Positions 26,554-62,270 of a DNA stretch of 64,000 bases are shown piece by piece. Source of the stretch: Elusimicrobiota bacterium (GTDB lineage: Bacteria > Elusimicrobiota > Elusimicrobia > UBA1565 > UBA9628). Made by a program: the position numbers and the translations under genes. Positions within the stretch are counted from its first letter, which is position 1; each line of letters starts with the position of its first letter. The stretch is from assembly GCA_003151975.1 (NCBI GenBank), contig PLZD01000024.1:1-64000 (forward strand), read 5' to 3'. The notes beneath the pieces were generated by a model that saw only the letters and a list, made by a program, of their open reading frames with translations, was not told the DNA's origin and searched no databases.

Positions 26554-28371
26554 TCACAGCGCGCCGCCGTTCTTGAGGCAAGCCAAAGTCTTGAGATGCT
26601 CGTAAGACGCCTTGAGCGAGCCCTCGTCCAGCATCGTCCGGCACAGCTGCGAATCGCCGCAATCCTCGAAGTTCCCCGAGCTCCGCGCTCGGGCGTATCC
26701 GACGATGTCGGCGCAGTGCTGCCGCACGTCGTCGGGGGGCTCCGGGGCGTCGCAGTAGTCGGCCTCTGAGAAGCGCGTGTACGCCCCAAATTCGAAAAGG
26801 CACGACTCGCTCTGCTGAGGCAGCAGGAAGCGCTGCGTGAGCAAGCCGCAAAGACGGTCCGGCTCGTCGATGTGCGCGAAGATGATGGCGCAGATGTCCG
26901 CGCGCTCGGAACGCCTCCGGCCAAGCATGGCCTCCTTGCAGTACCACCGATAGTCTCCCTTGCGGTCGACCAGTTCGCGCAGCGCCATCATGCCGTAGGT
27001 GCGCATCAGGCACATCGACGGCAAGGAACCGGGATCGCCCTTGGAGCCCAGGACGCCGCACGAGGAGGCCTTATCCGAACGAAACGCGGCAGCGGCCTGG
27101 TAGTCGACCGCCAATTTGGCGACTTCTCCCGCCCCGTCGTCAAGGGCGTCCTGGGGCCGGGAGAGGCCCGCCGCGAACTTCCCGATCGAGAAGGAATTCA
27201 CGCAGGCCGGATCGGCGTCAGGCGTTGCGTCCGCCTCGGCGGCCGCGGGGGCCGCGCCGGCTTGCGGCGCGTAGCGGACCGGCTCGACCTTCGGCGCCGG
27301 CGCGGGCGGCCTGGCTTGGCGAACGATTGCCGCCGGCGCGGCCGGAGCCGGGGCCGCCGACGCTGGACCTAGCGCCTCCAGGAAGGCGATCAGCGCCCGT
27401 TTTTCTTCCTTAGAAAGCATGAGGGGCACGATGTCCCGGTCTTGCCGCGTGAGCTGCTGCGCGGGTCCCAGGTCTCCGCCGCGATCGTAGAAGTCGACGA
27501 CATCGGACAGGGCCGCCATGCTGCCGTCGTGCATGTATGGCGCCGTGAGGGCGACGTTGCGAAGTGAGGGCGTCTCGAACGGCCGCAGCGAATCGGGTCC
27601 GGCGTCCGGCCGGGGCTTCAGCCCGACGAAGTGGAATTCCTCGTCGGTCAGGAAAGGTCCGTTATGGCAGCGCAGGCAATGGGCCTTGCCCGCGAAGACC
27701 ACGAGCCCTTCCTTCTGTAAGGGCGTGAGCGCGGAGCGATCTTCGTCGAAGAGGTCGATCGGGGCCGGACCGACGCGCGCCGCCGACCTAATGAAAGCGG
27801 CGAAGGCTTTGCCCGCGTTGTCGGCCGTGACGCCCCTCCATCCGAAAACTCGCGAGAATCGCTTCGCATACGCCGGAGAGCTTTTGAGCAGGGCGGCCAA
27901 GTCGCGCGGCGGCATGTTCATCTCTTGCGGGTTGGCCGCCGCCTCCAGCGCGGCATTGGCGATCCCGTCGGCCCGCCCGTCCCAGAATAATCGCTGCCGG
28001 AAGCGGGCGTTGAGCAAGGTCGGAGTGTTCCGCTTAAGCTCCTTTCGCTCGGAGCCCCGGCCCCTGCCCAAGGTTCTGGGCAGGCCGTCGGTCCACGCCA
28101 GCGCCGGAACATGGCACGTCGAGCAGCTCACCGTCTTGTCGCGTGAGAGGCCGGCGTCGAAGAACATCGTCCGGCCAAGCTCGATTTCGTCTTCGGGGGA
28201 ATTCTCATCACGCGCGAAGGAAGCGAGGCGCAGGTCGAACCGGCTGATCAGGACGCGTCGCCATGCTGCCTCGACGGCAACGGAGTCAACCGCCACCTCG
28301 GCGGGCTGCGCTCCCCGCGCGAACCCAGTCACGCAGGCCAGGATCAGCCAGGACAACGGGACCGACGGCAA
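26554..28371 (-). CDS. Exported MauG/MbnH-type dihaem protein with Cys-rich C-terminal domain (copy A)
   Basis: 605 aa, TTG start at 28371 with AAAGG about 8 bases upstream. Signal peptide about 1-20. The dihaem peroxidase part (about 25-340) has two C-x-x-C-H haem sites, C-S-T-C-H and C-L-R-C-H, plus F-W-D-G-R and P-Y-M-H-D-G-S typical of the bacterial CcP/MauG superfamily. Some of these use hydrogen peroxide to oxidise Trp in a partner protein. An Ala/Pro linker leads to a Cys-rich domain (about 400-605) ending in the C-G-D-S-Q-L-C-R motif shared with other secreted proteins here. The length is roughly double that of a plain dihaem peroxidase because of this domain. Second gene of module A, after the FGE-like gene. 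Confidence 0.85.
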   Translation of the reverse strand: MPSVPLSWLILACVTGFARGAQPAEVAVDSVAVEAAWRRVLISRFDLRLASFARDENSPEDEIELGRTMFFDAGLSRDKTVSCSTCHVPALAWTDGLPRTLGRGRGSERKELKRNTPTLLNARFRQRLFWDGRADGIANAALEAAANPQEMNMPPRDLAALLKSSPAYAKRFSRVFGWRGVTADNAGKAFAAFIRSAARVGPAPIDLFDEDRSALTPLQKEGLVVFAGKAHCLRCHNGPFLTDEEFHFVGLKPRPDAGPDSLRPFETPSLRNVALTAPYMHDGSMAALSDVVDFYDRGGDLGPAQQLTRQDRDIVPLMLSKEEKRALIAFLEALGPASAAPAPAAPAAIVRQARPPAPAPKVEPVRYAPQAGAAPAAAEADATPDADPACVNSFSIGKFAAGLSRPQDALDDGAGEVAKLAVDYQAAAAFRSDKASSCGVLGSKGDPGSLPSMCLMRTYGMMALRELVDRKGDYRWYCKEAMLGRRRSERADICAIIFAHIDEPDRLCGLLTQRFLLPQQSESCLFEFGAYTRFSEADYCDAPEPPDDVRQHCADIVGYARARSSGNFEDCGDSQLCRTMLDEGSLKASYEHLKTLACLKNGGAL

Positions 28372-28374
28372 GAC

Positions 28375-29118
28375 TTAGCCTTTGGCTACTCGGAAGCCCA
28401 AATCCCACTTGCGCGTGGCGGGAGCCAGCGTGCGGCACGGCGTCACCAGCTTGCCGTCATCGCTCTTCCTGTAGTTTCCGCCGCCGACGTAAACGCGATC
28501 CCAGCCCGCGTCAACCCAGGCCGAGCCGTCCTTCGGGGCGCCGACGTAGGAAGGATGGGACCAGTCCTGCACCCACTCCCAAACTTTCCCGGGCATGTCG
28601 CAGAGTCCTTGCTTGGTCTTTTCCTGCTCGCTGGCGCACACCGGGCGCAACGCGGTCTGGTTGGTGCCCCAGGGATACTTCGAGCTCGCGCCGGCGCTGC
28701 GCGCGGCGTATTCCCATTCGGAGTCGCTGGGAAGGCGCCCTCCGACCCACTTGGCGAAGGCTGCCGCCTGGTTCCAGTCCACGCAAGTCACCGGCAAATC
28801 GTCTCCCTTAATATCGGAGCCGCACTGCGTGACCGGCGTGCATGCGCCGGCCGCAACACAGGCCGCGTACTGCTTCTGAGTCACGGGGGTCTTCGCCAGC
28901 GCGAAGGACTTGACCGAGACCGTGTGCACCGGCCGCGTCTCGCCCCACTGGTCGGTCCCCATGCGGAAGGTCCCCGCAGGAAGCTTCACCCATTCGATCG
29001 CCGCGTCCGCGGCGGGCGCCGCTTCGGCCTTGCGTTCCGGCCCGGCGGCGTTGGACATTAGAGGTACAAAAGAGACACTGAAGGAAAAAACTAAGATTCC
29101 GCGTGTGTTCATTTTCAT
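28375..29118 (-). CDS. Exported FGE/SUMF-fold protein, non-canonical active site (copy A)
   Basis: 247 aa, ATG 29118 after GGGGGA. Signal peptide about 1-25. The sulfatase-modifying-factor fold is recognised by F-R-M-G near the start, P-V-T near 75, W-E-Y-A-A-R, G-K-V-W-E-W-V-Q-D-W and the final D-L-G-F-R-V. The usual R-G-G-S-W is replaced by V-G-G-G-N-Y and the two catalytic Cys of true formylglycine-generating enzyme are not both present (one Cys, in T-P-C-R). It is therefore unlikely to be a genuine FGE; the four other Cys may form structural disulfides. It is always paired with a dihaem protein here, suggesting a partner or substrate. Confidence 0.8.
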   Translation of the reverse strand: MKMNTRGILVFSFSVSFVPLMSNAAGPERKAEAAPAADAAIEWVKLPAGTFRMGTDQWGETRPVHTVSVKSFALAKTPVTQKQYAACVAAGACTPVTQCGSDIKGDDLPVTCVDWNQAAAFAKWVGGRLPSDSEWEYAARSAGASSKYPWGTNQTALRPVCASEQEKTKQGLCDMPGKVWEWVQDWSHPSYVGAPKDGSAWVDAGWDRVYVGGGNYRKSDDGKLVTPCRTLAPATRKWDLGFRVAKG

Positions 29119-29139
29119 CGGTTCCCCCGCTGTGAGCTA

Positions 29140-29168
29140 AGTGTAGCTCCAATACCGCGAACTGTCAA
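29140..29168 (-). promoter_or_regulatory. Promoter of module A (FGE-like/dihaem)
   Basis: TTGACA (29163-29168), 17-bp spacer ending in ATTGGAGC, TACACT (29140-29145). The leader is about 15 bases with GGGGGA before ATG 29118. Nearly the same sequence precedes module B. Confidence 0.8.
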
Positions 29169-29178
29169 GGCTCGAGAA

Positions 29179-30993
29179 TTATCGCCTCGGCTTGAGGCAG
29201 GCGATGTCGCGCAGGCGCGACAAGGACTCTTGAATCGCCCCCGGGGCCGCCATGCCGCGGCAGAGCGCCGAGTCGCCGCAATCGTCGACGCGCCCCGACG
29301 CCTTCGCGCGGGCGAATCCCACGATGTCGTGGCATTCCTCCCGCACGAAGCGCGGCGGATCGGGGGCGTCGCAATAGTCGGGCTCTCGAAACCGGCTGTA
29401 GGCGGAGAAATGGAAGACGCAGGCGTCGGTCTCCCGCGGCGTGACGACGCCGCCCGAGGCCAGCAGAGCGCACAGGCGCGCGGGCTCGTCGATGTGCGCG
29501 AGGATCGCCGAGCATTCGGCCTTCCCGTAGTAAGGGAGCTCGTGCACGCGTATGCCGCATGCGTCGACGAAGCGCGGGCTGCGCGTGACGAGATTCCTAA
29601 TCTGCAGCATGCGCACGGCGTCTCGCCGGCATCTCCGAGCGGCCCACGAGCCCTCCGCCGCCGCCTTCGGCGCCAGGGCGTCGCACCGGGAGACGTCGTC
29701 CGCCCCGTAGGCGACGAGCGATTGATGGAGCACGATCAGCACCAGCAGTTCGCCTTCTCCCTCGTGGGCCGCGCCGGGCTTGAAATAATCCGAAATGAAT
29801 TTATCGAACGCGAAGGATTTCTCGCAGGCCCCGTCCTCCTCCGCTTCGGGCTCAGGGGAAGGAGCCGAGGGGCCTTGCAAGACCGTCTGCGCGGGGGCGT
29901 AGCGCTGCTCCTCGGGTGCGGGAGCCGGGGCGGGCTTCTCGGGCCGCGCCGGCCTCGCGACCGCCGGCGGGGCGGGCGGCGGAGCGGTCTCGCCCAACGA
30001 TCCCAGGAACGCGACGAGAGCCCTCTTCTCCTCCGCGGTGAGCTTGAGCGGCACGATGTCGGCGTCTTGCCCCGTGAGAGCCTGCCCGGCGCCCTGGTCG
30101 CCGCCGCGATCGTAGAATTCCACGACGTCCGTCAGCGTCGCGAGCGTTCCATTGTGCATGTACGGAGCGGTCGCGCCGAGATTGCGCAGCGGCGGCGTCA
30201 CGAACGTGCGGCCCGCGTCGGGGTCGGCGGCGCCGTTCGCCTTGAGTCCGATGAAATGCTCTTGGCCGTCCGACATGGACGGCCCGTTGTGGCAGCGCAG
30301 GCAGTGGGCCTTCCCGGTGAAGAGCACGAGCCCTTTCTTCTGCAGCGGGGTCAGCGCGGAACGATCGTCGGCGAATCTCTCGAAGGGCGAGGGATCGGCC
30401 CGGGGCACGGTCTCGACGAAAGCGGCGAACGCCTCGCCGACGAGGTCCGGGGCGACCGGCCTTCCGGGATACACCCGGGCAAACCACTTCGAGTACTTCG
30501 GCGAGAGGGCGATCTCTTGCGCAAGCAGCTCCGGCGGGACGTCCATTTCATCGGGGTTGGCCGCGGCGGTCAGCGCCGCCTCCGCGACGTTATTGGCGCG
30601 CCCGTCCCAGAAGAAGCTTTGACGCAAGCGGACGTTGAGAAGCGATATCGTGTTGCGCGAGAGCTCCTTGCGCGTGGCGCCGATGCCCTTGCCGCGCGCG
30701 CGGGGAAAGCCGTCCGTCCAGCCGTGGGACGGAACGTGGCAGGCAGCACAGCTCAGGCTCTTGTCCTTCGATAGTTCGGCATCGAAGAACAGCGCCCGGC
30801 CGAGGGCGACCTCATCGGCCGAGGGCTCGGGGCGCGCGAGGCCCGAGCCCGGCTTGAACGCGCTGATTTGAATCCGATGCCACGCCGCTTCGACCGCCGA
30901 CGAATCGACGGCGACTTCCGGAGGCGAACCGGCTCTCGCCAGCCCCCCGAGACTGAGGAGGGCTAGGCCCGCGGACAGAGCCCGGCCGAACAA
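29179..30993 (-). CDS. Exported MauG/MbnH-type dihaem protein with Cys-rich C-terminal domain (copy B)
   Basis: 604 aa, TTG 30993. Paralogue of 26554-28371 along its whole length: signal peptide about 1-21; haem sites C-A-A-C-H and C-L-R-C-H; P-Y-M-H-N-G (Asn instead of Asp); an Ala/Pro linker with R-Y-A-P; and the Cys-rich domain ending C-G-D-S-A-L-C-R. The periplasmic peroxidase or protein-oxidation role is as for copy A. The gene ends only 10 bases before the promoter of module A. Confidence 0.85.
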   Translation of the reverse strand: MFGRALSAGLALLSLGGLARAGSPPEVAVDSSAVEAAWHRIQISAFKPGSGLARPEPSADEVALGRALFFDAELSKDKSLSCAACHVPSHGWTDGFPRARGKGIGATRKELSRNTISLLNVRLRQSFFWDGRANNVAEAALTAAANPDEMDVPPELLAQEIALSPKYSKWFARVYPGRPVAPDLVGEAFAAFVETVPRADPSPFERFADDRSALTPLQKKGLVLFTGKAHCLRCHNGPSMSDGQEHFIGLKANGAADPDAGRTFVTPPLRNLGATAPYMHNGTLATLTDVVEFYDRGGDQGAGQALTGQDADIVPLKLTAEEKRALVAFLGSLGETAPPPAPPAVARPARPEKPAPAPAPEEQRYAPAQTVLQGPSAPSPEPEAEEDGACEKSFAFDKFISDYFKPGAAHEGEGELLVLIVLHQSLVAYGADDVSRCDALAPKAAAEGSWAARRCRRDAVRMLQIRNLVTRSPRFVDACGIRVHELPYYGKAECSAILAHIDEPARLCALLASGGVVTPRETDACVFHFSAYSRFREPDYCDAPDPPRFVREECHDIVGFARAKASGRVDDCGDSALCRGMAAPGAIQESLSRLRDIACLKPRR

Positions 30994-30996
30994 CGA

Positions 30997-31722
30997 TCAG
31001 CCTTTGACGATGCGGAATCCCAACTCGGGGCGGCGAGTGTCGGGCGCCAGGCGCCGGCACGGTGAGATGAGCTTGCCTTCCTTGTCGCGGAAATAAAAGC
31101 CGCCGCCGACGTAGACGCGATCCCAGCCCGCGTCGTTCCAGGCCGTGCCGTCCGCGGGAGCGCCGACGTAGCTGGGATGATACCAGTCCGCGACCCACTC
31201 CCAAACGGTTCCCGACATGTCGCAAAGCCCTTCCTTGGTCGCGGCCTTGCCGTTGGCGCAGACCTCGCGCGGCGTGACGTGATCGACTCCCCAGGGATAC
31301 TTCGAGCTGACGCCGGCGCCGCGCGCCGCGTATTCCCATTGGGCGTCGCTGGGGAGGCTCCCGCCGGCCCACTTCGCGAACGCGTCCGCCTGCTCCCAGC
31401 TCACGCAGGTCGCCGGCACGTTGTCGCCCGCGCGGTAGCCGTCGCATTCCTTGATCGGCGTGCAGGCTTTCGCTTCGACGCAGGCCCGGTACTGCTTATT
31501 GGTCACCGGAGTCTTGGCCATCGCGAACGACTTCACCGCGACCGTATGCACGGGCCGGGTGTCGCTCCATTGATCGGAGCCCATCTGAAATGATCCCGCC
31601 GGGAGCTTGACCCATTGGATCGCCGCGTCGGCCTTGCTGTCCGGTCCGGCGGCGTTGGACATTAACGGCGCAAAAGAGAGACTGACGGCACACAGCAGTA
31701 TTCGGCCCGCGTTTATTTTCAT
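30997..31722 (-). CDS. Exported FGE/SUMF-fold protein, non-canonical active site (copy B)
   Basis: 241 aa, ATG 31722 after GGGGGA, overlapping the TGA of the TPR-TP-methylase gene as ATGA. Signal peptide about 1-24. Close paralogue of 28375-29118, with the same replacement of R-G-G-S by V-G-G-G and a single Cys in S-P-C-R. Cysteine positions in the N-terminal half are shared, which supports structural disulfides. It has its own promoter inside the end of the preceding gene. Confidence 0.8.
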   Translation of the reverse strand: MKINAGRILLCAVSLSFAPLMSNAAGPDSKADAAIQWVKLPAGSFQMGSDQWSDTRPVHTVAVKSFAMAKTPVTNKQYRACVEAKACTPIKECDGYRAGDNVPATCVSWEQADAFAKWAGGSLPSDAQWEYAARGAGVSSKYPWGVDHVTPREVCANGKAATKEGLCDMSGTVWEWVADWYHPSYVGAPADGTAWNDAGWDRVYVGGGFYFRDKEGKLISPCRRLAPDTRRPELGFRIVKG

Positions 31723-49460: not shown

Positions 49461-52382
49461 TTACGGCAGGCCGGACCCAGAGAAAAGGCCGGGCGCGATT
49501 TTCCGCGCCTTCTCGAGATAGGCGACGGCCCGGCGAGGATCTCCGGACCGCTCCCGGCAGACGCCGGCGCCGATCAGCGCCCAAACGTTGCCGGGATCTG
49601 CGCGCAAGGCCGAGGCGAACGCGCGCCCGGCCGCGGCGCAGCGCTTGAGACCGCACAGCGCCCTGCCCTTCCAGACCAGCCATTCCCCTTTTTCGGTTCT
49701 ACGGCGCAAGGCCGCGTCGATGTCCAGCAAAGCTCCTTTATACTCTTCCTGCGAGAGCCTCAATTCCCCCCGCCAAGCGCGCGCCCAGAGGCATGAAGGA
49801 TCGAGCCTCACGGCGCGATCGAAGTCGCGACCGGCTTCTTGCGAAGCGCCCGCGCTGCGCCGGGCCGCGGCGCGCCAAGCATAGACCCAGGCATGGCGGC
49901 GGTCCGTGCGCACCTCGGCGGGCTCGTCGCCCAGAAAATCATAAGCGCAGCAGCAGCGCGGGTCCAATTTGACCGCCGTCTTGACGTCTGCGACGCCGCC
50001 GCGCGCGTCTCCCAGCTCACGGCGGACCTCGCCGCGCAGCGCGAGCGCCCAGGCGCAGGACGGATCCAGCGCGCAGGCCCTCCTCAACGAGGAGAGCGCC
50101 TCCCGCCGGCGGCCCTGGGCGCGTAGGATCTCCCCACGCCAACCGTGAGCCTTGGCGTCCTTCGGGTCCAGCCGGACGGCGGCATCCGCGTCGGATAAGG
50201 CAAGCGATAAGGACCCGGACTGGCGCTGCGCCTTCGCGCGCACGACAAGCGACCACGCATCGTCGGGCCGCGCCGTCACGGCCGCCGTCGCCGCGTCGAC
50301 CGCCTCCTGCCAGCGGCCCAGATTGCGCAAGGCTTCGCTTTGCAAAACGCACGCGGAAGGCAGACGCCCTTGGGCCATTTTGTAGGCCGCGCGCGCATCC
50401 GCCAGCGCTCCCTTGAAATCCCACGCCGTGCGCTTCGCTACGCCGCGGCTCAATAGGCGCCGGGCGTCTCTCGGGAATAAGCGCGCGAGCATGTTCTTGT
50501 CCGCGACGGCGCGCTCGTACTCGCCGCAGCAGCGCCACGCCTCAGAGCGAATCTCGAGCGCCGCGACGCAGCGGGGATCTCCGAGCAAAGCTTCGGTGCA
50601 GAGCTCGGCCGCCGCGCGATGGTCTCCCTCCCCGGCGCGTTCGCGCGCCGCGTCCAGAATGACGGCAAGGTCGCCGTCCGCGGCGGCGCGGCGGCCGGTC
50701 TTGAGCCAAGCGCGGGCGCGGCCGGCGCGCAGGCCCGGATGGCGTCGATCCAGTTCGATGGCCCGGCCGTAATCCGCGGCGGCCGAGCTCCAGCGCCCCA
50801 AACGCTCCTCGGCCAGGCCTTTCTGCTGCCAGATCCAGGCCTCCTTCGGAGCGAGCGACGCCGCGCGGCCGAGATCGCGCACGGCGGCGCGCTCCTTCCC
50901 GCGCGCGCTCAGAGCCTCGGCCCTCCAGGCGAAGGCGTAGGCGTTTCGCGCGTCGAGACGCACGGCTTGATCGAGATCGCTCAGCGCCGCGGTTCCACGG
51001 CCCAGAAGAGCCTGGGCTCGCCCGCGCCAGGCTCGCGCCCAGGAGTGGGCGGGCTCGAGCCTCAGGGCCGCGGAGAGGTCCTCGAGCGCGCCGCGCAGGT
51101 CGCCCCGTTCGAGCTTAATCTGGCCGCGCCACGCCCAGGCGGCGGCGTCCGAGGGATTCTCCTTCAAGTACGCCTCGAGCTCGGCGAGGGCTTCCTCGGC
51201 CTTGCGCAAGTCCGAGCACCAGACATATTTCGGATCGAGCCGGCGGGCTTGCTCAAGGCTCTTGAGCGCCTCTCCGACCCGGCCGATGCCGCGCAGCGCC
51301 AGCGAGCGCTCCGCGAAGCTCCAGGCGTAGCTCGGATCGAGCGCGCACGCCAATTCCAGATCGCCGAGGGCCTCTTTCGCCGAGCCGAGCGCGCGCTTGG
51401 CGCCGCCGCGCCAGGCGTAGCCGAATTCGTAGTTCGGGTCGAGCTCCAGGCCGCGATCGAAATCCGCCAGCGACTCCTTGACCTGCCCCGTGCGCCGGCG
51501 CACCTCGCCTCGCCACACGTGGAACCAGCCGCAGCGCGGCGAAAGTTTAATGGCGCGATCGATGGCCGCCAGAGCCTCGGGGCCCGTCGCGTTGGTCATC
51601 CGCGCGCGGGACAGATAAGCCCACGCGTAGGCGCAATCGGGCTTGAGCTCGACGGCCCGCTCGAAGCCCGCCATCGCGCCCGCGAAGTCGTTGATCTCGG
51701 GGGAGCGCAGGCGATCGGCGCGAAAGACGTGCATCCAATAGTCGTGAGGATGCGCCTTGAGCCAGCGGTCGGCGGCGCGTATGATCCGCGCCGGCGAACG
51801 GCTTTCGACGTCGCCCGCCGCGAACCGAAAATAGGCGGCGCCTTCGTCAAGCAGGATGGCCGCTTCGCAGTCCGCGACGAAGCCCTTGATGTCGCCGGCG
51901 CGCCGCCGCACGTCGCTTCGGAATTGATAAATCCAGCCCTCGCGCGGCTCGAGCGCCAGAGCGCGGTCCAGAAGGCGCAGCGCGCCGGCCTTATCCTGGA
52001 GATCCTCGCAAGCCAGCGCCGCTACGACGTAAGCGAGCGCGCACGAGGGACTCAAGCCGATCGCCTTCCGCGCGTCGGAGAGAGCCCCGCGCGCGGCATT
52101 GCGCGCGGCCGAGCTCCGGGCGGCCCGGCTGATCCCTCCGGGCTGAAGGCGGTATTGGGAGCGCGCCAGAAAACTCAAGCGGCCGACCGCTCGCAGGAGA
52201 AGCGGCCAAGGATCGCGCGGCCCGATGGCGAGGGCTTGGTCGGCGCGCGCTGTCGCCCTCATGACGCCCCGGCGGCGGAAGCCGTACTTAGAGGAGCGCC
52301 CGCAGCTTATGAGCCGCTCGAGAGCTTTGATGACGCCGAAGGCGGCCTCCCCGCCGAGAGGCGGCGGGAAGTCGCGAGCCAT
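49461..52382 (-). CDS. Very large TPR (WRG-type) protein
   Basis: 973 aa, ATG 52382, overlapping the bcp stop by one base (TGATG). N-terminal G-R-S-S-K-Y-G-F-R-R-R is the signature also seen at 33650 and 39517. The rest is about 27 helical repeats; six contain exact W-R-G and at least four close variants. The repeats also share E-F-G-Y-A-W and Y-A-W-A-Y-L-S-R-A-R with the paralogues. No signal peptide and no enzyme domain. Likely a large cytoplasmic solenoid that binds other proteins. Confidence 0.8.
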   Translation of the reverse strand: MARDFPPPLGGEAAFGVIKALERLISCGRSSKYGFRRRGVMRATARADQALAIGPRDPWPLLLRAVGRLSFLARSQYRLQPGGISRAARSSAARNAARGALSDARKAIGLSPSCALAYVVAALACEDLQDKAGALRLLDRALALEPREGWIYQFRSDVRRRAGDIKGFVADCEAAILLDEGAAYFRFAAGDVESRSPARIIRAADRWLKAHPHDYWMHVFRADRLRSPEINDFAGAMAGFERAVELKPDCAYAWAYLSRARMTNATGPEALAAIDRAIKLSPRCGWFHVWRGEVRRRTGQVKESLADFDRGLELDPNYEFGYAWRGGAKRALGSAKEALGDLELACALDPSYAWSFAERSLALRGIGRVGEALKSLEQARRLDPKYVWCSDLRKAEEALAELEAYLKENPSDAAAWAWRGQIKLERGDLRGALEDLSAALRLEPAHSWARAWRGRAQALLGRGTAALSDLDQAVRLDARNAYAFAWRAEALSARGKERAAVRDLGRAASLAPKEAWIWQQKGLAEERLGRWSSAAADYGRAIELDRRHPGLRAGRARAWLKTGRRAAADGDLAVILDAARERAGEGDHRAAAELCTEALLGDPRCVAALEIRSEAWRCCGEYERAVADKNMLARLFPRDARRLLSRGVAKRTAWDFKGALADARAAYKMAQGRLPSACVLQSEALRNLGRWQEAVDAATAAVTARPDDAWSLVVRAKAQRQSGSLSLALSDADAAVRLDPKDAKAHGWRGEILRAQGRRREALSSLRRACALDPSCAWALALRGEVRRELGDARGGVADVKTAVKLDPRCCCAYDFLGDEPAEVRTDRRHAWVYAWRAAARRSAGASQEAGRDFDRAVRLDPSCLWARAWRGELRLSQEEYKGALLDIDAALRRRTEKGEWLVWKGRALCGLKRCAAAGRAFASALRADPGNVWALIGAGVCRERSGDPRRAVAYLEKARKIAPGLFSGSGLP

Positions 52383-52992: not shown

Positions 52993-55308
52993 CTACCCCT
53001 CGTGCCGCTTCCCGGCCGTCTCGATGGTCAGCGCCGCCTTTAAGTCCTCGCGCGCGACGTTCAAATCTCCCAACGCCGCCGCGGCCTTCGCGCGGACCAC
53101 GAGCGCCTCCGATTGCCGCGGGTTGGCGGCCAGCGCCTTTTCCGCGTCGGCGCGCGCGCCCGCGTTGTCGCCCAGCTGGAGCCTCAGCTTGGCGCGCAGG
53201 ATGTGGACGCGGTCCGCGACCCAGCCGCGCGCCAGCTCCGCGTCGAAGCCGGCCAGCAGCGCCGCGATCTTCGATTCCTCGGCCCGGCCCGCACCAATGG
53301 ACTCATTAAGCTTGACCGCCAGGTCGAGGTCGGCCTTCGCCTCGGGCAATCGTCCCAAATGCCGCCGCGCTTCGCCGCGCAGGGCGTAGACCCACGGCCA
53401 ACGCGAGCCGGATTCGATCGCCGCGGAGAGCGCCGCTTCCGCGCGCGTCACGTCGCCGGCCTTCAACGCGCGCTCCCCCTCCCGGAACGGACTCTCCTTG
53501 GACGCCCGAACCCGCCGCCGCCCGGGCTTCAAATCGAGCGCGCCCACCACCGCGAGATCTTTCAAAAGGCGGAACACCTGCCCCTCGACGATGTCGAGCG
53601 GCAGCGGCAGGCGGGCGAGCAGGATATCCTTGATCTCTCCAACGCTGCGCTTGCCGTCGACGAGGCCCAGCATGTCGATGTACGACGAGGGCAGGATCCG
53701 CTTCGGGTTCACGGCCTCGCTGGAGGACGGCTTGATCACGTCGAGCCTTTGAATCGGGCGCAGGCACCCGTTCGCGGAACTCGGCAAGAAGGTCAACGAA
53801 AGCTTTCTCTTGAGCCGCCACTTCGGCACGAGCGCGTCGTCGAGCTTCTCGAGCTTCACCAAACCCTCGGCGCGCTTGATGTTTGCTTTCACGGGACCCT
53901 TCTTCAAAAAGCCCGTCTCCACGATGGACAGAATCTGCCGCGACCACTTCTTGAGCTCGAGCTTGGTGCCCTCCCACTGCCACGAGTGCTCAACGCCGCT
54001 GGAACCAAAGAGCAGGCTCTGCGACGTGTAGGAGCGCTCGAAATGGTAGTTCACGCCGGCCGCGATGGCGATGAAGGCGCCCTTGTCGGAAAGATCCAAC
54101 GGCGTCCCTTTCGCCAAGACATCCTTCGCCTCGGCCCACCACTTGCGCGCGTTGGGGTCGTGGTGATACCAGTAGCGCACGAGGGCGAGGAACGACGACG
54201 AGACCTCTTTGCAGTAGCGGCCGTAATCGCGCCACAGCTCGCGCCGCAGCCCCGCGTCTTTTTCCCGCCACCAGGTGTTGAGCGTGTAGGCCGCGCGGTG
54301 CGCCGAGAGGTGCGCCATCATGACGCCCGACGAGAGCAGCGGATCGATGAAGAACGCCGCGTCCCCGGCCGCCAACCAACCATCACCGCAAGCGGTCCCG
54401 TTCATATACGACCAATCGCCCAGCGTGAAGAAATCCTTGTCGGGGAAAGCCGGATCGACGCCGCGCATCACTTCCGCGTTCTTGAGGAGCGGCCGGATCT
54501 CGGCGCAGTCCTTCAGCGCGCCATGGAAAAACTCGCGCATGTCCTTGACGCCCTTTTCTTTCACATAAGCCGCCTTCGACACCAAGCCGACCGAGACCAT
54601 GTCTTTGGACAAGGGGATGTACCAGAACCAGCCTTCCGGTCGCGAGCAGACGAAGATCTTGGTCTTGTCGGGATGGCCTTGGTACTCGAACTTCCATTTC
54701 GCGTTCTTGAAATAGGCGTAGGCCGCGACGTTCTTGAGGTCCTCGCGATAACGCCTGGTTCGCCGCGCGGCGGAGAGGAAGCCGTTCTGGCCGCTGCAGT
54801 CGGCAAGCCACTCGCAAAGGATTTTTTTCTTCTCTCCGCCCGCGCTTTCCACCACGAGGCCGATGATCTTGCCGCCCTTTTCGATCGGCTCCAGGGCGCG
54901 GCCGGAAAAAACCTCCACGCCGATGGACTTGGCGTGGTCGAGGAGGATCTGGTCGTAGCGCGAGCGCAGGACCTGCCAGGAGAACTCCGTGTCGAGCGCG
55001 CGGCCGTACTTCTCGACCATTTCCAGGTTGAGATTATTAAAGTCGGCGTCCCACGGCTTGCGGTCCCGGCCCCAGACGAAGACGACGCCGATCTTGCGCG
55101 GGAAACCGCCCGCGTTGACCTTGTCGAACACGCCCATCTCTTTCAATACCGGGATGGAGCCCGGCAGCAGCGACTCGCCGACGTGGTGGCGCGGGAACGG
55201 GGCTTTCTCGATGACGAGGATTCTCTTCTCCGGGTTGTATTTCTTGACGAGCGTAGCCAGCGTCGAGCCCGCGGGGCCGCCGCCGACGACGACGAGGTCG
55301 TACCTCAC
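52993..55308 (-). CDS. Flavin-dependent halogenase-like protein with PqqD-like domain and C-terminal TPRs
   Basis: 771 aa from GTG 55308 (GTGA overlap). Residues 1-440 form an FAD enzyme: V-V-V-G-G-G-P-A-G-S-T at 6-16, H-H-V-G-E-S-L-L-P at 41-49, W227-F-W-Y-I-P232 (the W-x-W-x-I-P signature of flavin-dependent halogenases), and G-D-A-A-F-F-I-D-P near 315. Residues about 540-593 resemble PqqD, with L-V-D-G-K-R-S-V-G-E-I and a final helix; PqqD-like domains often bind leader peptides. The last 160 residues are TPRs. Together these suggest a tailoring enzyme acting on a carrier- or peptide-bound substrate. A reductase or hydroxylase of the same fold cannot be excluded. Last gene of the operon entering from the right edge. 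Confidence 0.75.
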   Translation of the reverse strand: MRYDLVVVGGGPAGSTLATLVKKYNPEKRILVIEKAPFPRHHVGESLLPGSIPVLKEMGVFDKVNAGGFPRKIGVVFVWGRDRKPWDADFNNLNLEMVEKYGRALDTEFSWQVLRSRYDQILLDHAKSIGVEVFSGRALEPIEKGGKIIGLVVESAGGEKKKILCEWLADCSGQNGFLSAARRTRRYREDLKNVAAYAYFKNAKWKFEYQGHPDKTKIFVCSRPEGWFWYIPLSKDMVSVGLVSKAAYVKEKGVKDMREFFHGALKDCAEIRPLLKNAEVMRGVDPAFPDKDFFTLGDWSYMNGTACGDGWLAAGDAAFFIDPLLSSGVMMAHLSAHRAAYTLNTWWREKDAGLRRELWRDYGRYCKEVSSSFLALVRYWYHHDPNARKWWAEAKDVLAKGTPLDLSDKGAFIAIAAGVNYHFERSYTSQSLLFGSSGVEHSWQWEGTKLELKKWSRQILSIVETGFLKKGPVKANIKRAEGLVKLEKLDDALVPKWRLKRKLSLTFLPSSANGCLRPIQRLDVIKPSSSEAVNPKRILPSSYIDMLGLVDGKRSVGEIKDILLARLPLPLDIVEGQVFRLLKDLAVVGALDLKPGRRRVRASKESPFREGERALKAGDVTRAEAALSAAIESGSRWPWVYALRGEARRHLGRLPEAKADLDLAVKLNESIGAGRAEESKIAALLAGFDAELARGWVADRVHILRAKLRLQLGDNAGARADAEKALAANPRQSEALVVRAKAAAALGDLNVAREDLKAALTIETAGKRHEG

Positions 55309-57317
55309 GCGCGCCTCGCCTGCTCTCTGAGCCACAACGCCGGCGCGCAGCCCGGGTCGAGCGTCTCGTCGAGCGCGCGGCTGGCCTCTTCGATCGCGCC
55401 CGCGGCGTCGCCGGTGCGCAGTTTGAGCCAGCCGCGGATCAGGAAAGTCTGTATGTCGCGCCGGCCGCGGGTCTCGCGCTCGAGCACGGACAGCGCCTTG
55501 GCGAAATCTCCGTTCGCGAGCGCCCGCTTCGCGCTCCGCGAGCAGCGGCGCAGCAAGTTGTCCATGGCGAAGAAAGAGCCCGGATCACCCAGTCCCTGCA
55601 AGGTCTCGACGGCGCCGCCGTCCACCCGGCGCGCTCCGACTTGCCGCACGAGCAAGGCGACGGAATTGCGAGGATTGAGCGCGAGCGCGCGGGAAAGAGA
55701 GCGCGCCGCGTCGTTCTTCTGTCCCAGGCGGCCCTCGAGCCAACCTTTCACGGCCCAAGCCTCGTCGGAACCCGACGCGCCGTTGCCGAGCTGACGCGAG
55801 AGCGCCTGGCGCGCGCCGGACCAATCGCCGAGGCGCGCCTTGGCTTTCCACAGCCACGCGTCGAGCCAATGATCCTGCGGGTGCAGCTCCAACGCCGCCT
55901 CGAAGCTCTCCGCCGCGTCGCGAAAGCGTCCCAGCGCGAAGAGCGCTTGGCCGCGCCAAGCCAACGCCGGGGCGCAATGGCCTTGCAGCTTGAGCGAGCG
56001 CTCCAAGGACTTGAGCGCGGCTCGCGCGTCCCCGAGCTTCAAAAGGCAAAGACCTCGACCGGCGTGCGCCCAGCTCAGGTCCGGGCTCTTTTTCAAGGCG
56101 CGGTCGAATTCCTCGAGCGCCGTCGGCCAATCGCCCAAACGCCGCAAGGTCTCGCCGCGCCAGACCCGCGCCCATGGATCGGCCGGCGCGAGCGTGAGCG
56201 CCGCGTCGAGATCGGACAGAGCCCGCTGGTAGTTCTGCAGCAAGAGATCGGTTTGGCCGCGCCAGGCCCACGCCCAGGCCGCTTTCGGAAATTTTGTGAT
56301 GTACCGGTCGAGTTCCCGCAGAGAGCGCAGGGCGGCGGGGTTGGGATGAGACATGCTGATGCGGTGCTCGATCCAGACGCCGCTGCGGTCGATGTCGGCG
56401 GCGGCTTTGAGCGCGTCCGCGGCCTCCTTCCAATTCCCCATCTCCATGTGCGACCGTGCCAACGGATAAAGCGTCGTCGGGTAGTAAGGGTTGAGCGCGC
56501 GGGCGCGCTCCAATAGCGGCAGGGCTTTTTTCCATTGGCCGAGCTCGGCGTACGACACGCCCAGCCATGAATAGCCCCGGTCGTAATCGGGCAGCGGCGG
56601 GATTGAGCGTTCGAGGTCGGACAGCGCCTTGGGCGTTTTCTTGAGCACGAACATCGCGCGCCCGCGCCAAGACAGAGCGAATCCGGATTCAGGCGCGAGC
56701 TTCAGGGCCTTATCCAAGTCCTTGACCAAGGAGCGGTCGCGCAGATCGGCCTTGGCTCGCGCCATAAACAAGAGCGGCAGCTCGCTCTTCGGATCGAGTT
56801 TCGAGGCGCGCGCGAACTCCGCGACGGAACCGCGAAAGTCGGCCTGATACCAGCGGCAGATCCCGCGCAGGACATACGGCCAGCTCCAGCGCGGCTCGAG
56901 TGCGATGGCGCGATCGAAGCTCCGGATCGCGCGCGTGTAGCGCCGATGCATCTCGTGGACCATACCGGAAAAAAGATGCGCCCAGGCGCAGGGCGAAGGC
57001 TGATCGGCCGCGCGTTCGAAGTCCGCGAGCGATTCCTCGCTCAGGCGAAGCGAGCCCCAGTAGCGCTCGTGTTTAGTGAGTCCTCGCAAGACGAGCTGTC
57101 TCGAGAGCGCGCTCTCCCGGGGATGTTTTCCGGGCGGCGCCCCCCCGGGGCCAAGCCGGAGCTTGCGTCCCATGTCGAGCAGACCCTCTTCGCCGGCGAG
57201 ATTGTTCTGCCGGTAGAAAAGAAGCGCGTGACTGATGTAGCCGCGCCAGACGAGAGCCGCCGGATGCTCGCTTTCGGGGCCGAGCAGGACGTCGAGCCGC
57301 TCAGGAGCGGACCGCAT
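55305..57317 (-). CDS. TPR (WRG-type) protein
   Basis: 670 aa, ATG 57317 after GGGAGAGG, overlapping the upstream gene by 17 bases. About 18 helical repeats, many with L-x-W-R-G and A-W-A-W-R-G-Q. No signal peptide, no enzyme motif. Directly coupled to the halogenase-like gene, so it may be a dedicated partner. Confidence 0.75.
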   Translation of the reverse strand: MRSAPERLDVLLGPESEHPAALVWRGYISHALLFYRQNNLAGEEGLLDMGRKLRLGPGGAPPGKHPRESALSRQLVLRGLTKHERYWGSLRLSEESLADFERAADQPSPCAWAHLFSGMVHEMHRRYTRAIRSFDRAIALEPRWSWPYVLRGICRWYQADFRGSVAEFARASKLDPKSELPLLFMARAKADLRDRSLVKDLDKALKLAPESGFALSWRGRAMFVLKKTPKALSDLERSIPPLPDYDRGYSWLGVSYAELGQWKKALPLLERARALNPYYPTTLYPLARSHMEMGNWKEAADALKAAADIDRSGVWIEHRISMSHPNPAALRSLRELDRYITKFPKAAWAWAWRGQTDLLLQNYQRALSDLDAALTLAPADPWARVWRGETLRRLGDWPTALEEFDRALKKSPDLSWAHAGRGLCLLKLGDARAALKSLERSLKLQGHCAPALAWRGQALFALGRFRDAAESFEAALELHPQDHWLDAWLWKAKARLGDWSGARQALSRQLGNGASGSDEAWAVKGWLEGRLGQKNDAARSLSRALALNPRNSVALLVRQVGARRVDGGAVETLQGLGDPGSFFAMDNLLRRCSRSAKRALANGDFAKALSVLERETRGRRDIQTFLIRGWLKLRTGDAAGAIEEASRALDETLDPGCAPALWLREQARRA

Positions 57318-59370
57318 CGGCCTCTCCCAGAAGACGCTCCAGACTCGAGCGCTGTTCGGGATTGAAGAGATACGGGAAGTCCTTGAGCGCCTTGCGGTAG
57401 TCCTCGACGACTTCGCGCTTGCGCCCCGCCTTTTCGTTTACCGCGGCACGCACGACGTACCCTCGCCCCATGTTCGGCGCGATCTCGATGCAGCGCTGAG
57501 CCGCGTCCAGCGCGGAGGCGGTCTTGCCCAGGGCCAGACGCGCCTGGGCCATGAGTAGGTAAGCCTCCGGATACTTCCCGTCCAAGAGCAGCGCCCGGTC
57601 CAAAAGCTTGACGGCATCACCCGCGCGGCCCCGCGCAAGCTCAAACTTGGCGCGCAGGTAGTACGCCCACGGCGTCTTGGGCTTCTCCTTCAAAATACGG
57701 TCGAGCGTCTTGAAGGCCCCCGACACGTCGCCTGTCGCCGCCAGCGCCTCGGCGAGCCAGCCGTACGCGTACCAAAACCGCGGCTCCAGCTCCAGGGCTC
57801 GCGTCAGATAGCGCGCCGCCGCCGCCGGCTGGCCGGAGTCGAAAAGGCCCTTGCCGTACCAGCCGTGCGCCAGGACGTGATGCGGATCGAGCGTCACGGC
57901 TTGTTCGAAGTCGCGCAGGGCCGCCGGGTTGTCCCACATCTCGAGCTTGAGCTGCCCCCGCCAGACGCGCAGTGACGCAACGTTCGGATTGGCGCGGATC
58001 GCGCGGTCGAGTTCCGCCAGCCCCTTCGCGAGATCGGCCTTGCTCGGCTCGCTGCCGGTCTTGAACACCCATCGATAGCGATGGTCCAGAAAAAAAGCCT
58101 GGTCGAGGTCGAAGGCGGCGCCGGCGTGATCGCCCAGCGCCCGGCGCACGAGCGACCGCTCGTGATAGGTCAGGCTGTAGTACGGGTCCATGGCGATCGC
58201 GCGGTCGAGATCGGCCAAAGCCTCCGGAAAGCGCGCCATCTTCCTATATAAAGACCCCCGCCACACGAAGGCGCGGTGATAATACGGCTGAAGCCGGATG
58301 GAGGAGCCGAAGTCCTTCAGAGCGCCCTCGAAGTCCCCGGTCACTCGGCGCGCGTTGGCCCGCCAGGCGTAGAACCAGCCCGCGTGGGGAGCGGCGCGAA
58401 TCGCGCGGGTCAGGTGCCGCACTCCCTCCGGGAAGCCGCCGGCGGTGTAGCAGGCCGCGCGGCCGAAAAAAGCGTGCGCCCAAGCCAGCCCTCGGTTCTC
58501 GGAGGCCAGGCGGGAGACGAAGCTGTAATCCTCGGCGGGGAAATGCGAGAAGTGGGACTGCGTGGCCTCGCGGCGATAGTAGGCGCCGACGGTCTCGGGG
58601 TGCGCGAAGACGAAGCGCAGGATCTTCCGGATGTAGGCGGGCGACTCGACCTTGAAGGTCTGGTGGATCTGCAAAGTGATGAAGCCCAGCACCGGGCTGA
58701 CGTTGTAGGCGTCGCGCATCAGAGACGCGCGCTGGCGTTGGGTCGGGGCGAGGCGGCAGGAGAGCAGATAAGCGGCCGAGCAAACGGGATTGGCCTTCGC
58801 GGCAGCTGCGTAAGCTTTCATAGCGGCCGGCCGCAGCCCGTCTTTCTCGAGACAGCGCCCGAGCAGAAGCCAGCCCAGCGCGCTTTTCGGCTTGAGCTTT
58901 AGGGCGGTCTCGAGGTCTTTCCTCGCGTCGGCTGTTTTTCCCTTCAGGAAGAACGCGGCGGCGCGGTAGAGAAAGGCCCACCAGAGCTTCCCATCGAGCT
59001 CCAACGCCCGAGAGAGGCTCGCCTCCGCCTCGGGCCGCTTGAGGTCGAGCTCGCCAAGCCAGGCGTGCGCCGCGGCCAGGTTCGGCTCGAGGTCCAAGGC
59101 CGCCTTCAGATCCTCGGCGGCGCCGTTAAGGTCGCCCAGAAGCCTCCGAATGCGGCCGCGCGCCGCCAAAGAACCGGCGGCGGGCGATTTCGCGATCGCG
59201 AGGTCGGCGGCCTCGTAGGCCTTCAGCAGTTCGGGGTTGTGGAGCTTCCGGAAATACGAAAGCTCGTATTCGGGGACGTGCGGCAGGCCGAAGCGCAGGC
59301 TCAGGTCCTCGAGCTTCTCGCTTTGTCCCAGCTTCTCCAGCGTCTCGATCCCATTCAAAGCGCGGGCCAT
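57301..59370 (-). CDS. TPR (WRG-type) protein, family of three tandem paralogues
   Basis: 689 aa, ATG 59370. It shares full-length organisation with 60219-62270 and 62267-64000: N-terminal L-E-K-L-G-Q, then S-L-A-A-R-G-R-I-R-R-L-L-G-D, central S-I-R-L-Q-P-Y-Y-H-R-A and a C-terminal F-P-Y-L-F-N. A central segment between repeats (about 200-290) is not TPR-like and is rich in aromatic residues. No signal peptide. Twelve bases separate it from the gene before. Confidence 0.75.
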   Translation of the reverse strand: MARALNGIETLEKLGQSEKLEDLSLRFGLPHVPEYELSYFRKLHNPELLKAYEAADLAIAKSPAAGSLAARGRIRRLLGDLNGAAEDLKAALDLEPNLAAAHAWLGELDLKRPEAEASLSRALELDGKLWWAFLYRAAAFFLKGKTADARKDLETALKLKPKSALGWLLLGRCLEKDGLRPAAMKAYAAAAKANPVCSAAYLLSCRLAPTQRQRASLMRDAYNVSPVLGFITLQIHQTFKVESPAYIRKILRFVFAHPETVGAYYRREATQSHFSHFPAEDYSFVSRLASENRGLAWAHAFFGRAACYTAGGFPEGVRHLTRAIRAAPHAGWFYAWRANARRVTGDFEGALKDFGSSIRLQPYYHRAFVWRGSLYRKMARFPEALADLDRAIAMDPYYSLTYHERSLVRRALGDHAGAAFDLDQAFFLDHRYRWVFKTGSEPSKADLAKGLAELDRAIRANPNVASLRVWRGQLKLEMWDNPAALRDFEQAVTLDPHHVLAHGWYGKGLFDSGQPAAAARYLTRALELEPRFWYAYGWLAEALAATGDVSGAFKTLDRILKEKPKTPWAYYLRAKFELARGRAGDAVKLLDRALLLDGKYPEAYLLMAQARLALGKTASALDAAQRCIEIAPNMGRGYVVRAAVNEKAGRKREVVEDYRKALKDFPYLFNPEQRSSLERLLGEADAVRS

Positions 59371-59382
59371 ACCGAATACTAT

Positions 59383-60222
59383 CTAATTTGGCCGCGTCCC
59401 GTTCAAGGGCTCGAGCGGGGCGCGGAGCATCTTCCACTCGTCTGCCTTGAGAGTAAGCGTCGGGAAGACGTCGTCGCAAAAGGACTTCACCGCCGCGCGG
59501 CCGGGCTCCTCGCAGGATTTCTCTCCTTTGAACAAGGCCTCGCACATCAGGTCGTATTTTTGGCAGCGCGCGGGATCTCCGGCCTTGAGCGCGGCCAGGG
59601 CCGCGGCTTTCATCCGGCACTCGCCCTGCAGTTTCTTGAGCGCCACGAGCCCGCAAGCCTCATCGCCTAGGAGATAATTGAAATAGCCGCGCTTTGCGAT
59701 CTCGGGATGCTTGGGCCATTCCTGACGCCCGCTCTTGTAAATGGCGCGAGCGGCCTCGGCGAAATCCTCGGGCGAGATCCCCTTCTCGCCGTAGAGCATG
59801 CGGCGCGCGTAGGGCACGAGCTCCTCCAACGGCCGGTCCTCGACCAGAGCCTTGAGCAAAAGATAGCCCGCCGCGCGCGATGTGCACACTCCGTACTCAT
59901 AGGTGAAGTGAATCTTGCCGTCGCTCTTGACGTACGTGTATTTCTTCTCCGGCGCGCCCTCCTTCGAGAGTTTCCCGCGCGGCTTGGGCCCGCCGGGAAA
60001 GTAATCGCAGAGATCGTCATCTTTGCTGACGACCTCCATGCAGGTCGCGTAATCGTAGAGCCCCTGGCGCGAGGCGGGACCGTATTGATGCAGGACCATC
60101 TTCTCCGGCGTGATCCAGCGCAGGCAGTAATCGCGCTTCTCTATAACGCTTAATTTGTCCGGCGCGGTCTCGGCGTGCGCTCCCGCGAGGGCCCAAAACA
60201 AACAGAGCGTTGCGATCTTCAT
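59383..60222 (-). CDS. Exported Cys-containing protein, distant member of the Cys-rich family
   Basis: 279 aa, ATG 60222 (ATGA overlap). Signal peptide about 1-17. About 11 Cys; near residue 230 the order C-Q-K-Y-D-L-M-C-E matches C-G-x4-C-R with Q for G and E for R. Lone exported protein inside an operon of cytoplasmic TPR proteins. Function unknown. Confidence 0.65.
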   Translation of the reverse strand: MKIATLCLFWALAGAHAETAPDKLSVIEKRDYCLRWITPEKMVLHQYGPASRQGLYDYATCMEVVSKDDDLCDYFPGGPKPRGKLSKEGAPEKKYTYVKSDGKIHFTYEYGVCTSRAAGYLLLKALVEDRPLEELVPYARRMLYGEKGISPEDFAEAARAIYKSGRQEWPKHPEIAKRGYFNYLLGDEACGLVALKKLQGECRMKAAALAALKAGDPARCQKYDLMCEALFKGEKSCEEPGRAAVKSFCDDVFPTLTLKADEWKMLRAPLEPLNGTRPN

Positions 60223-62270
60223 CGGCGCAAGAGCTCCTCGACCTCGCGCTTCTGCTCGGCGTTGAAGAGATACGGGAAGCGCTCGTAGACCGTGCGATAG
60301 TCGCCGAGCACGCCCTCATGACGGCCCTGGCTTTGGCGAATCCGCGCCCGCAGCAAGTAGGCGCGTCCCATGTTCGGCGAGATGATCAGCGCCTTCTCGA
60401 CGGCGTCGAACGCGCCCGCGTTGTCGCCGAGTTCGGTCAGGGCCTGCGCTAGGATGTACCAGCCCTCGGCGTGGCGCCCCTCGGAGCGCAAGGCCGCGCG
60501 CACGTCCTTGACCGCTTCCTTGAATCGCCCGGACTCGAGATGGAACTGCGCGCGCTGCTGGAGGGGCCACCACTTCGTCAAACAGTTTCTCGTTATTCCC
60601 TCTAGCCGGTCCATGGCGCGCTGCCGGTCGCCCGAACGGAATTCCGCCTCGGCGAGCCAACCGTGCAGGATCCACAATCTCGGCTCGAGCTCGACGGCCC
60701 GCGCGAGCCACTCGCGGGCCGCCCGGGGCTGGCCGCTCTCGACGAGGCCCCAGCCGTACCAGGCGTGAGCTAAAGCATGATGAGGGTCCAGGCGTACGGC
60801 CTTCTCGAAATCCACGAAAGCCTTCGAATATTCCCGCTTCTGGAGCCGCAGCTGTCCGCGCCAGGCCAGCAGCGACGGCACGCGCGGATGCGCGGTCAGC
60901 GCGCGGTCCAATTCCGCGATCGCCTTGTCGAGCTCGGAGGGGCCGGGCTCGCGGCCGACCGTGAAGACCCACGCGTAGCGAAAATCCTGCCGGAAGGCCC
61001 GGTCGAGGTCCAGCGCCGCTCCGACGAAATCTCCCGCCGCGCGCCGCGCCAAGGAGCGCTCGTGATTGGCGAAGGCATACTGCTCGTCGACGGCGATCGC
61101 GCGGTCGAGGTCGCGCAGGGCTTCTTTAATACGTCCAAGGTTGCGCAGCAAGGCGCCGCGCCAAGCGTAGGCGCGGTGATAGTACGGCTGAAGCCGGATG
61201 CTCGCGGCGAAATCGACGACCGCCCTCTCGGGCTTCTTGTCCTTGATCTCGCCCAAGGCGCGCCACGCGTGGACCCAGCCGGAATGCGGGGAGTCTTCGA
61301 CCGCCTGATTCAGCACGCGCAAGCCGAGTTTCGCTCGGGCGGCGTCGGGCGGACAACGCAGCACGCCGCGGCCCACGAGGCCCCCGGCCCAAGACGCCGA
61401 CGGGAAGATTTTGTGCAGGCGTGAGGAATCCTCGTACTCCTGGAACTGGTACGGCGAATAGTGAATGTCCTCTTGGCGGTAGTACCAGCCGGCGCGCTCG
61501 GGCTCCTTGAAGGCGAAGCTCCGCAGGGCCTTGAGATGGACTTCCCAAGTCAGCGGCGGCCGGAACTTCGAGAGCGTGATCAAGGCGTAGGTCGGATCGG
61601 CGTCCAAAGCGCCCTCGGCGGCCTTGACGGCGCGGCGGGGGTCGGTCTCCGCGCGGCTCCATAAAAGAAACGCCGCGGAGCAGACGGGGTTGGCGCGCGC
61701 CGCCGCGGCATAGGACTTGGCGGCCCCGCGGCGGTCTGAGAGCTTCTCCTCGCAGAGACCGAGCAGCATGAGTCCCAAAGCCGTGCCGGGCCGTCGTTTG
61801 ATCAGACGCCGCAAATCGGACTTCGCGCCTTCGATCTCGCCGTGCAGAAAACGCGAAGCGCCGCGGTAGAGATAGGCCGGCAGAAATCCCGCGTCGAGCT
61901 CCAGGGCGCGGCTCAAAGCCGTTTCCGCGTCGGGGCGCGAGAGATCGAGCTCGCCGAGCCAGGCATGCGCGGCCGCGTTTCTCGGATCGAGATCCAACGC
62001 CGCTTTGAGGTCCTGCGCCGCGCCGCCGGAATCGCCCAAAAGACGGCGGATGCGCCCGCGCGCCGCCAGCGACGACGACGATGTCGAGCGCCGGATTTCG
62101 CTCGAGACTCGTTCGAGCGCTTCGACGAGCTCAGCGTGATAAAGCCTGCGGAAGAACTCGAGCTCGTACTCGGCGATGAACGGCGTGCCAAAGCTCGCGC
62201 TGATCGACTCGAGCTTTTCCCACTGCCCGAGGGCTTCCAATTCCTTCAACGCCGGAGAGAGCTTCGTCAT
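60219..62270 (-). CDS. TPR (WRG-type) protein, family of three tandem paralogues
   Basis: 683 aa, ATG 62270 (ATGA overlap). Closest to the partial gene at 62267-64000, with near-identical blocks such as D-P-H-H-A-L-A-H-A-W-Y-G-W-G-L, V-P-S-L-L-A-W-R-G-Q and P-Y-L-F-N. The central non-repeat aromatic segment is present. No signal peptide. Confidence 0.75.
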   Translation of the reverse strand: MTKLSPALKELEALGQWEKLESISASFGTPFIAEYELEFFRRLYHAELVEALERVSSEIRRSTSSSSLAARGRIRRLLGDSGGAAQDLKAALDLDPRNAAAHAWLGELDLSRPDAETALSRALELDAGFLPAYLYRGASRFLHGEIEGAKSDLRRLIKRRPGTALGLMLLGLCEEKLSDRRGAAKSYAAAARANPVCSAAFLLWSRAETDPRRAVKAAEGALDADPTYALITLSKFRPPLTWEVHLKALRSFAFKEPERAGWYYRQEDIHYSPYQFQEYEDSSRLHKIFPSASWAGGLVGRGVLRCPPDAARAKLGLRVLNQAVEDSPHSGWVHAWRALGEIKDKKPERAVVDFAASIRLQPYYHRAYAWRGALLRNLGRIKEALRDLDRAIAVDEQYAFANHERSLARRAAGDFVGAALDLDRAFRQDFRYAWVFTVGREPGPSELDKAIAELDRALTAHPRVPSLLAWRGQLRLQKREYSKAFVDFEKAVRLDPHHALAHAWYGWGLVESGQPRAAREWLARAVELEPRLWILHGWLAEAEFRSGDRQRAMDRLEGITRNCLTKWWPLQQRAQFHLESGRFKEAVKDVRAALRSEGRHAEGWYILAQALTELGDNAGAFDAVEKALIISPNMGRAYLLRARIRQSQGRHEGVLGDYRTVYERFPYLFNAEQKREVEELLRR

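Follow-up and report, generated by a model that had tools for sequence, protein, structure and literature searches.

The flavoprotein gene

The window, the whole 64,000-nucleotide stretch of an Elusimicrobiota genome analysed here, carries on its minus strand a gene for a halogenase-like protein of 771 aa, P0001 (positions 52993-55308). The open reading frame was confirmed as a real gene; the gene-choosing script selected its frame over a long antisense reading frame, and G+C at the three codon positions is 0.63, 0.44 and 0.87. The gene starts with a GTG at 55308, which overlaps, as GTGA, the stop codon of the upstream TPR gene, and ends with a TAG. This overlap favours the later of two possible starts. 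The model of the full protein (pLDDT 87.3, pTM 0.86) comprises a FAD-binding halogenase part (residues 1-425; 54034-55308), a domain with the predicted RRE/PqqD fold (residues 485-600; 53509-53856) and TPR helices (residues 601-771; 52993-53508). The TPRs noted in the preliminary description are borne out by matches to TPR_2 and TPR_16 above the Pfam cut-offs and by model helices at residues 607-765.

The halogenase part matches PF04820 (Trp_halogenase) at 99.6 bits against a curated cut-off of 21, and FAD_binding_3 at 47.6 bits. GGGPAG begins at residue 9 and WFWYIP spans residues 227-232 (54613-54630), so that both motifs are where a halogenase-like flavoprotein was first recognised; the DPxxSSG region is also present. 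By sequence, the closest solved relatives are FasV (8zop, 188 bits), CndH (167), PltA (163) and CmlS (160), and the model aligns with FasV at Z 50.5 over 393 aa, with CndH at 44.3 over 374, with PltA at 42.3 over 380 and with PrnA at 33.1 over 350; Z values for the CmlS, CndH, FasV and PltA group lie at 39-50. Lys72, in the sequence GFPRKIG (codon at 55093-55095), is the expected catalytic lysine: it aligns with the lysine of FasV, CndH and PltA and is invariant in all 17 Elusimicrobiota members and in 56 of 56 sequences of a wider alignment. The latter is made up of the window protein plus 55 loci out of the best 80 of 379 relatives from a homologue search of genome contigs; a further alignment took in 21 of the best 80. 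Loss of this lysine had been named as evidence that would speak against a halogenase, and the residue is kept. As modelled, P0001 is a flavin-dependent halogenase of the CmlS/CndH/FasV type, closer to the CmlS/CndH branch than to PrnA, which we take to represent the branch of the peptide halogenases MibH, SrpI and ChlH. It is set apart from the CmlS, CndH, FasV and PltA group by its TPR extension and its radical SAM and Hxs neighbours, and it scores 185.2 bits with the CmlS equivalog NF033113, below the cut-off of 900.

A separate observation concerns a plasmid of Rhizobium sp. CB3171, where a radical SAM gene lies immediately before a gene annotated as tryptophan 7-halogenase (L249:2209-4937, plus strand). 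The annotated protein has neither the lysine nor the full WxWxIP, and the two genes are perhaps a QhpG-like peptide hydroxylase pair.

The C-terminal domain

The preliminary description likened residues 540-593 to PqqD, and as a statement of fold this was right: the model has helices at 541-587 and a strand at 591-595. Modelled alone (pLDDT 88.5), residues 485-600 have the three-strand, three-helix order, bbb-aaa, that the RRE definition demands in the available text of PMC12710340. Of the two profile searches proposed at the outset, the one with PF04820 succeeded, but P0001 as a single sequence has no match to PF05402 (PqqD) at E<1; two of the 17 family members match it at E<=5, the best at 0.087. 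Single-sequence Pfam thus gave nothing usable, and profile-profile and fold comparisons were required. Against a PqqD profile of 26 sequences (from 28 loci, two of which were extracted empty), the segment has a probability of 95.0 (E 3.7e-8), compared with 0.1-0.8 for three other P0001 segments. The value is 95.4 after wider relatives are added, and 93.0 with solely the non-Elusimicrobiota relatives among the best 80 of 379.

How specific is the likeness to RREs? For this segment Foldseek ranks the carbamoyltransferases GdmN and NovN highest (E 3e-4 to 1e-3), followed by Rv2067c and next by TbiB1. In VIA-align, where a Z below 8 may reflect merely a common arrangement, the RRE matches span 6.7-8.9: the leader-bound RREs of TbiB1 (Z 8.9, 82 aa, 2.9 A) and lasso B1 (Z 8.7, 83 aa, 2.3 A), the PbtF RRE (7.9) and PqqD 3g2b (Z 6.7, 59 aa, 1.8 A, 22% identity), next to 10.6 for Rv2067c and 8.8 for NovN. 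The specificity rests on the fold search, in which RREs and RRE-bearing enzymes rank high, mixed with Rv2067c, GdmN/NovN and NO66/MINA53. With the domain as query, no PDB sequence was found at E<=10; a search of a viral fold library had no match at E<=0.001. As predicted, residues 485-600 have an RRE/PqqD-like winged-helix fold with a putative capacity for leader binding, and not the winged helix unrelated to PqqD that was to be watched for. The domain differs from known RREs and PqqD in its fusion to a halogenase as well as in the PF05402 result.

Does such a domain point to a peptide substrate, as was first supposed from a built-in recognition domain plus TPRs? The same C-terminal region is found in CmlS, whose own C-terminal domain aligns with it at Z 5.1 over 104 residues, and in Chloroflexota halogenases with no nearby peptide locus of the Hxs kind. 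Among the best 80 of 379 relatives, 35 exceed 530 aa and are long enough to contain the region, and a single one, on an Elusimicrobia contig (L094), has an Hxs or PapB-like radical SAM gene in its flanks, which covered up to 10 kb and less at many loci. No RiPP genes were recognised around 12 relatives, judged by eye from the first residues of the neighbours, and a literature search returned no paper on CmlS with a winged helix. Since CmlS and relatives lacking an Hxs locus share the domain, a peptide substrate can be inferred but weakly from the domain: a halogenase with an RRE-fold tail is not thereby marked as a RiPP enzyme, and the tail is, alone, no proof of a peptide substrate. P0001 might instead halogenate a small, carrier-bound or other non-peptide molecule, with the RRE fold inherited in the lineage and the link to Hxs genes indirect. 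The wide occurrence of the region, its alignment with CmlS and the small-molecule enzymes GdmN and NovN at the head of the Foldseek ranking speak for such a substrate, as does the fact that the nearest solved relatives work on small molecules. What weighs on the other side is the genomic setting.

The His-Xaa-Ser gene run

P0001 stands at the far end of a run of minus-strand genes that starts about 25 kb upstream, beyond the window; the contig is 150 kb long, its minus-strand genes extend to about 91.4 kb, and the window ends within the locus. At the start of the run is a His-Xaa-Ser system with HxsA4, two HxsB, HxsC- and HxsD-like proteins, PapB-like radical SAM proteins, TPR proteins and a second halogenase. 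The HxsA4 precursor (111 bits, NCBIfam cut-off 55) and both HxsB proteins (430.2 and 455 bits, cut-off 370) exceed their curated thresholds, and there is also a partial HxsB-like protein. HxsC (151.9 against 267.9), HxsC4 (120.2 against 500) and HxsD (38.4 and 22.1 against 50) fall below theirs; judged from these scores, the locus is Hxs-like, with HxsC and HxsD diverged. The two PapB-like proteins score 136 and 105 bits (cut-off 340), and a QhpD-type model is among their matches. The precursor consists of (GSH)n followed by a CRGGWCCPRC end, with 23 H-x-S units by count. Other Hxs systems with HxsA4 share the precursor, HxsB and HxsC- and HxsD-like proteins; the locus of P0001 adds a pair each of halogenases and PapB-like enzymes, as well as extended TPR runs and the Cys-rich CRGGWC tail.

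From HxsB (81.4 kb) down to P0001, the gaps between genes are at most 62 nt, with two gene ends approximate. The second halogenase lies in this run (C27, about 68620-70374; L011:6620-8374, minus strand), is 55% identical to P0001 over residues 3-432 and has the Lys72 equivalent and the C-terminal domain, but lacks TPRs. Genes for a haem-copper oxidase and a flavin reductase occur at other places in the genome. Four Elusimicrobiota genomes (G000, which is the present one, G215, G201 and G195) have largely retained the gene order; in G195 the contig stops within HxsB and a third halogenase is present, and in G201 the short halogenase lies on the opposite strand. The tight packing with HxsA4 and HxsB, the order kept in four genomes and the retention of two paralogues together argue against a non-peptide substrate. 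So does a copy in G172 (L222, G172:C169, 8611-17404, minus strand), which lies among five HxsC4 and PapB-like radical SAM genes although HxsA4 is undetected. On balance a non-peptide substrate is unlikely. P0001 is by itself an ordinary halogenase; what is unusual is a conserved, duplicated, RRE-fold halogenase within a His-Xaa-Ser locus.

The TPR-rich proteins share in the conserved order. The one directly upstream (55305-57317, minus strand), called TPR by eye and by similarity and not by family search, has orthologues adjoining the TPR-halogenase in G215, G201 and G195. Two more lie at 57301-59370 and 60219-62270 on the same strand. A further one is found downstream (49461-52382, minus strand), and its orthologues likewise follow the TPR-halogenase in G215 and G201 and occur close to it in G195. 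Could P0001 modify one of these proteins, for example a Trp-rich TPR protein, and not HxsA4? Many TPR proteins of the run carry repeated AWAWRG-like segments, and one of the two halogenases is TPR-fused. Tryptophan, however, is a usual residue of the TPR consensus, and TPR families match four of the 17 family members, the second halogenase being among the 13 without a match. Such a target is very improbable.

Another candidate activity is that of a QhpG/LodB/GoxB-like maturase, which would hydroxylate the Trp of the tail, perhaps on the way to a tryptophylquinone, while the PapB-like enzymes would make thioethers as QhpD does. QhpG, LodB and GoxB belong to the same flavoprotein superfamily as P0001 and have Trp residues within proteins as substrates, QhpG in partnership with a radical SAM enzyme; the available text of PMC7876137 describes QhpG as acting on peptidyl Trp and as resembling CmlS. 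The QhpD-type match of the radical SAM proteins and the position of the tail Trp between cysteines are consistent with this activity, and P0001 scores 120 bits with the QhpG model, 82.8 with LodB and 70.3 with GoxB. These scores are under the cut-offs of 240, 400 and 400, whereas the CmlS model scores higher. Four distant plasmid-borne flavoproteins, LodB-like comparators with QhpG itself outside the alignment, are without the lysine and the full WxWxIP, both of which the P0001 family keeps; one of them is annotated next to a LodA/GoxA-type oxidase, and a second has a neighbour that resembles LodA by eye. A Trp-oxygenating role for P0001 is accordingly quite doubtful.

Other features were seen in the same genome. 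A second His-Xaa-Ser locus (L235; G000:C57:135001-150000) has a precursor with a GSHGQW end and Cys in some repeats, and no halogenase was found in the 15 kb read. Within the window, a gene pair on the minus strand at 26554-31722 occurs in two tandem copies (605/247 aa and 604/241 aa) whose starts resemble each other, which looks like a local duplication, and two small overlapping genes at 24354-24925 (minus strand; 97 and 93 aa) look, by eye, like a toxin-antitoxin pair.

His-Xaa-Ser systems are common in the phylum, with HxsB in 92 of 340 genomes and HxsA4 in 85. The halogenase (query residues 1-595, E<=1e-60) is found in 12 and a pattern coding for HCRGGWC in 10. In six of the 12 (G000, G192, G195, G201, G204 and G215), one contig carries both the halogenase and HxsA4; two of the three halogenase matches in G204 seem broken. 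In G203, G207 and G209 the halogenase sits on contigs of 15.6, 9.0 and 5.2 kb and HxsA4 is elsewhere, and in G171, G172 and G216 there is no match to HxsA4 or HxsB; the halogenase contig of G171 is 3.5 kb and the G216 copy is at a contig end. A prepilin-peptidase-like reading frame was seen by eye among the radical SAM genes of G172. Among the 92 genomes with HxsB, the halogenase occurs in seven of 10 that have the HCRGGWC pattern and in two of 82 that lack it (Fisher p 4.6e-7, kinship ignored); hypergeometric values for the association, also ignoring kinship, are 9e-10 when all 340 genomes are taken and 3e-4 for the 44 of the family. There are exceptions in both directions. G196 has a CRGGWC precursor on a 238-kb contig, of which the 60 kb read contain no halogenase of this kind, and in G202 and G210 the pattern is present and the halogenase was not found, the contigs being broken nearby. 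The halogenase genomes G192 and G203 have precursors that end in GQW and GAW. A flavoprotein in G196 was considered as an orthologue and dropped (30% identity, a PltA-like tail by eye, no C-terminal domain).

Across 30 loci (L063-L092), the HxsA4 tails comprise eight that end in W, 10 in Y and one in F, eight that contain RGGWC and three others, at least one of which is cut by a contig end. With 27 of 30 tails aromatic or containing RGGWC, the tail suggests a common site of modification or recognition. A terminal Trp as a sign of halogenase loci was rejected: aromatic residues also stand at the end of many Hxs precursors where there is no halogenase, and Trp is thus no mark of halogenation.

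A proposed tailoring role and its meaning

The reading preferred here, given a probability of about one half, is that P0001 is one of two paralogous tailoring halogenases in an Hxs RiPP-like pathway, with the tail Trp of HxsA4 as the likeliest target. Flavin-dependent halogenases make hypohalous acid from FADH2, O2 and halide and relay it by the lysine. By analogy with the family, P0001 would form a flavin hydroperoxide from FADH2 and O2, oxidise the halide to hypohalous acid and pass it by way of Lys72 to an aromatic residue. Binding of the HxsA4 precursor or of partner enzymes may fall to the RRE-fold domain and the TPRs. The PapB-like pair would make thioethers from the tail cysteines, leaving the Trp of CRGGWC(N/C)PRC between them as a natural target. 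The nearest halogenase relatives act on phenols and pyrroles, so alternative candidates are the NYLHNS Tyr and the His residues of the repeats.

The motifs with Lys72, the halogenase and RRE folds, the presence of HxsA4 and HxsB in the same run, the kept order, the association across genomes and the oxidase and flavin reductase all count for a role in the Hxs pathway. Against it are counted the domain shared with CmlS and with relatives lacking an Hxs-type locus, the genomes with the pattern and no halogenase found (G196, G202, G210), those with a halogenase and neither HxsA4 nor HxsB detected (G171, G172, G216), the tails of G192 and G203 and the aromatic tails of loci lacking a halogenase. 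Peptide or protein as substrate, which had been derived from the domain architecture, finds little footing there and draws its support from the upstream His-Xaa-Ser locus, which lies mostly beyond the window. Through this wider context the first interpretation is, in outcome, more probably right than wrong.

Flavin-dependent halogenases that act on ribosomal peptides are known: MibH, SrpI, MppI and ChlH chlorinate or brominate Trp in lanthipeptides, proteusins and lasso peptides, MibH after leader removal and SrpI and MppI with the leader present (PMC12615548). Both timings thus have precedent for P0001. The available text of PMC12615548 names no Hxs or radical SAM loci for RiPP halogenases. 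An open literature search found no paper that works out the chemistry of a His-Xaa-Ser system and none on halogenases in His-Xaa-Ser loci. A broader proposal is advanced tentatively, at somewhat less than even odds: that a branch of Elusimicrobiota Hxs RiPPs, with poly-(Gly-Ser-His), a Cys-rich Trp tail and PapB-like crosslinks, is halogenated by two RRE-fold halogenases of the phenol/pyrrole type, one of them TPR-fused. If this is true, the pathway would yield a His-rich peptide with halogenation and thioether crosslinks, of a type for which the literature searched gave no description. The conserved halogenase pair offers a testable handle, namely the isotope pattern that a halogen would leave on a named peptide, and, should the proposal hold, peptide halogenation would be extended to another branch of the halogenases.
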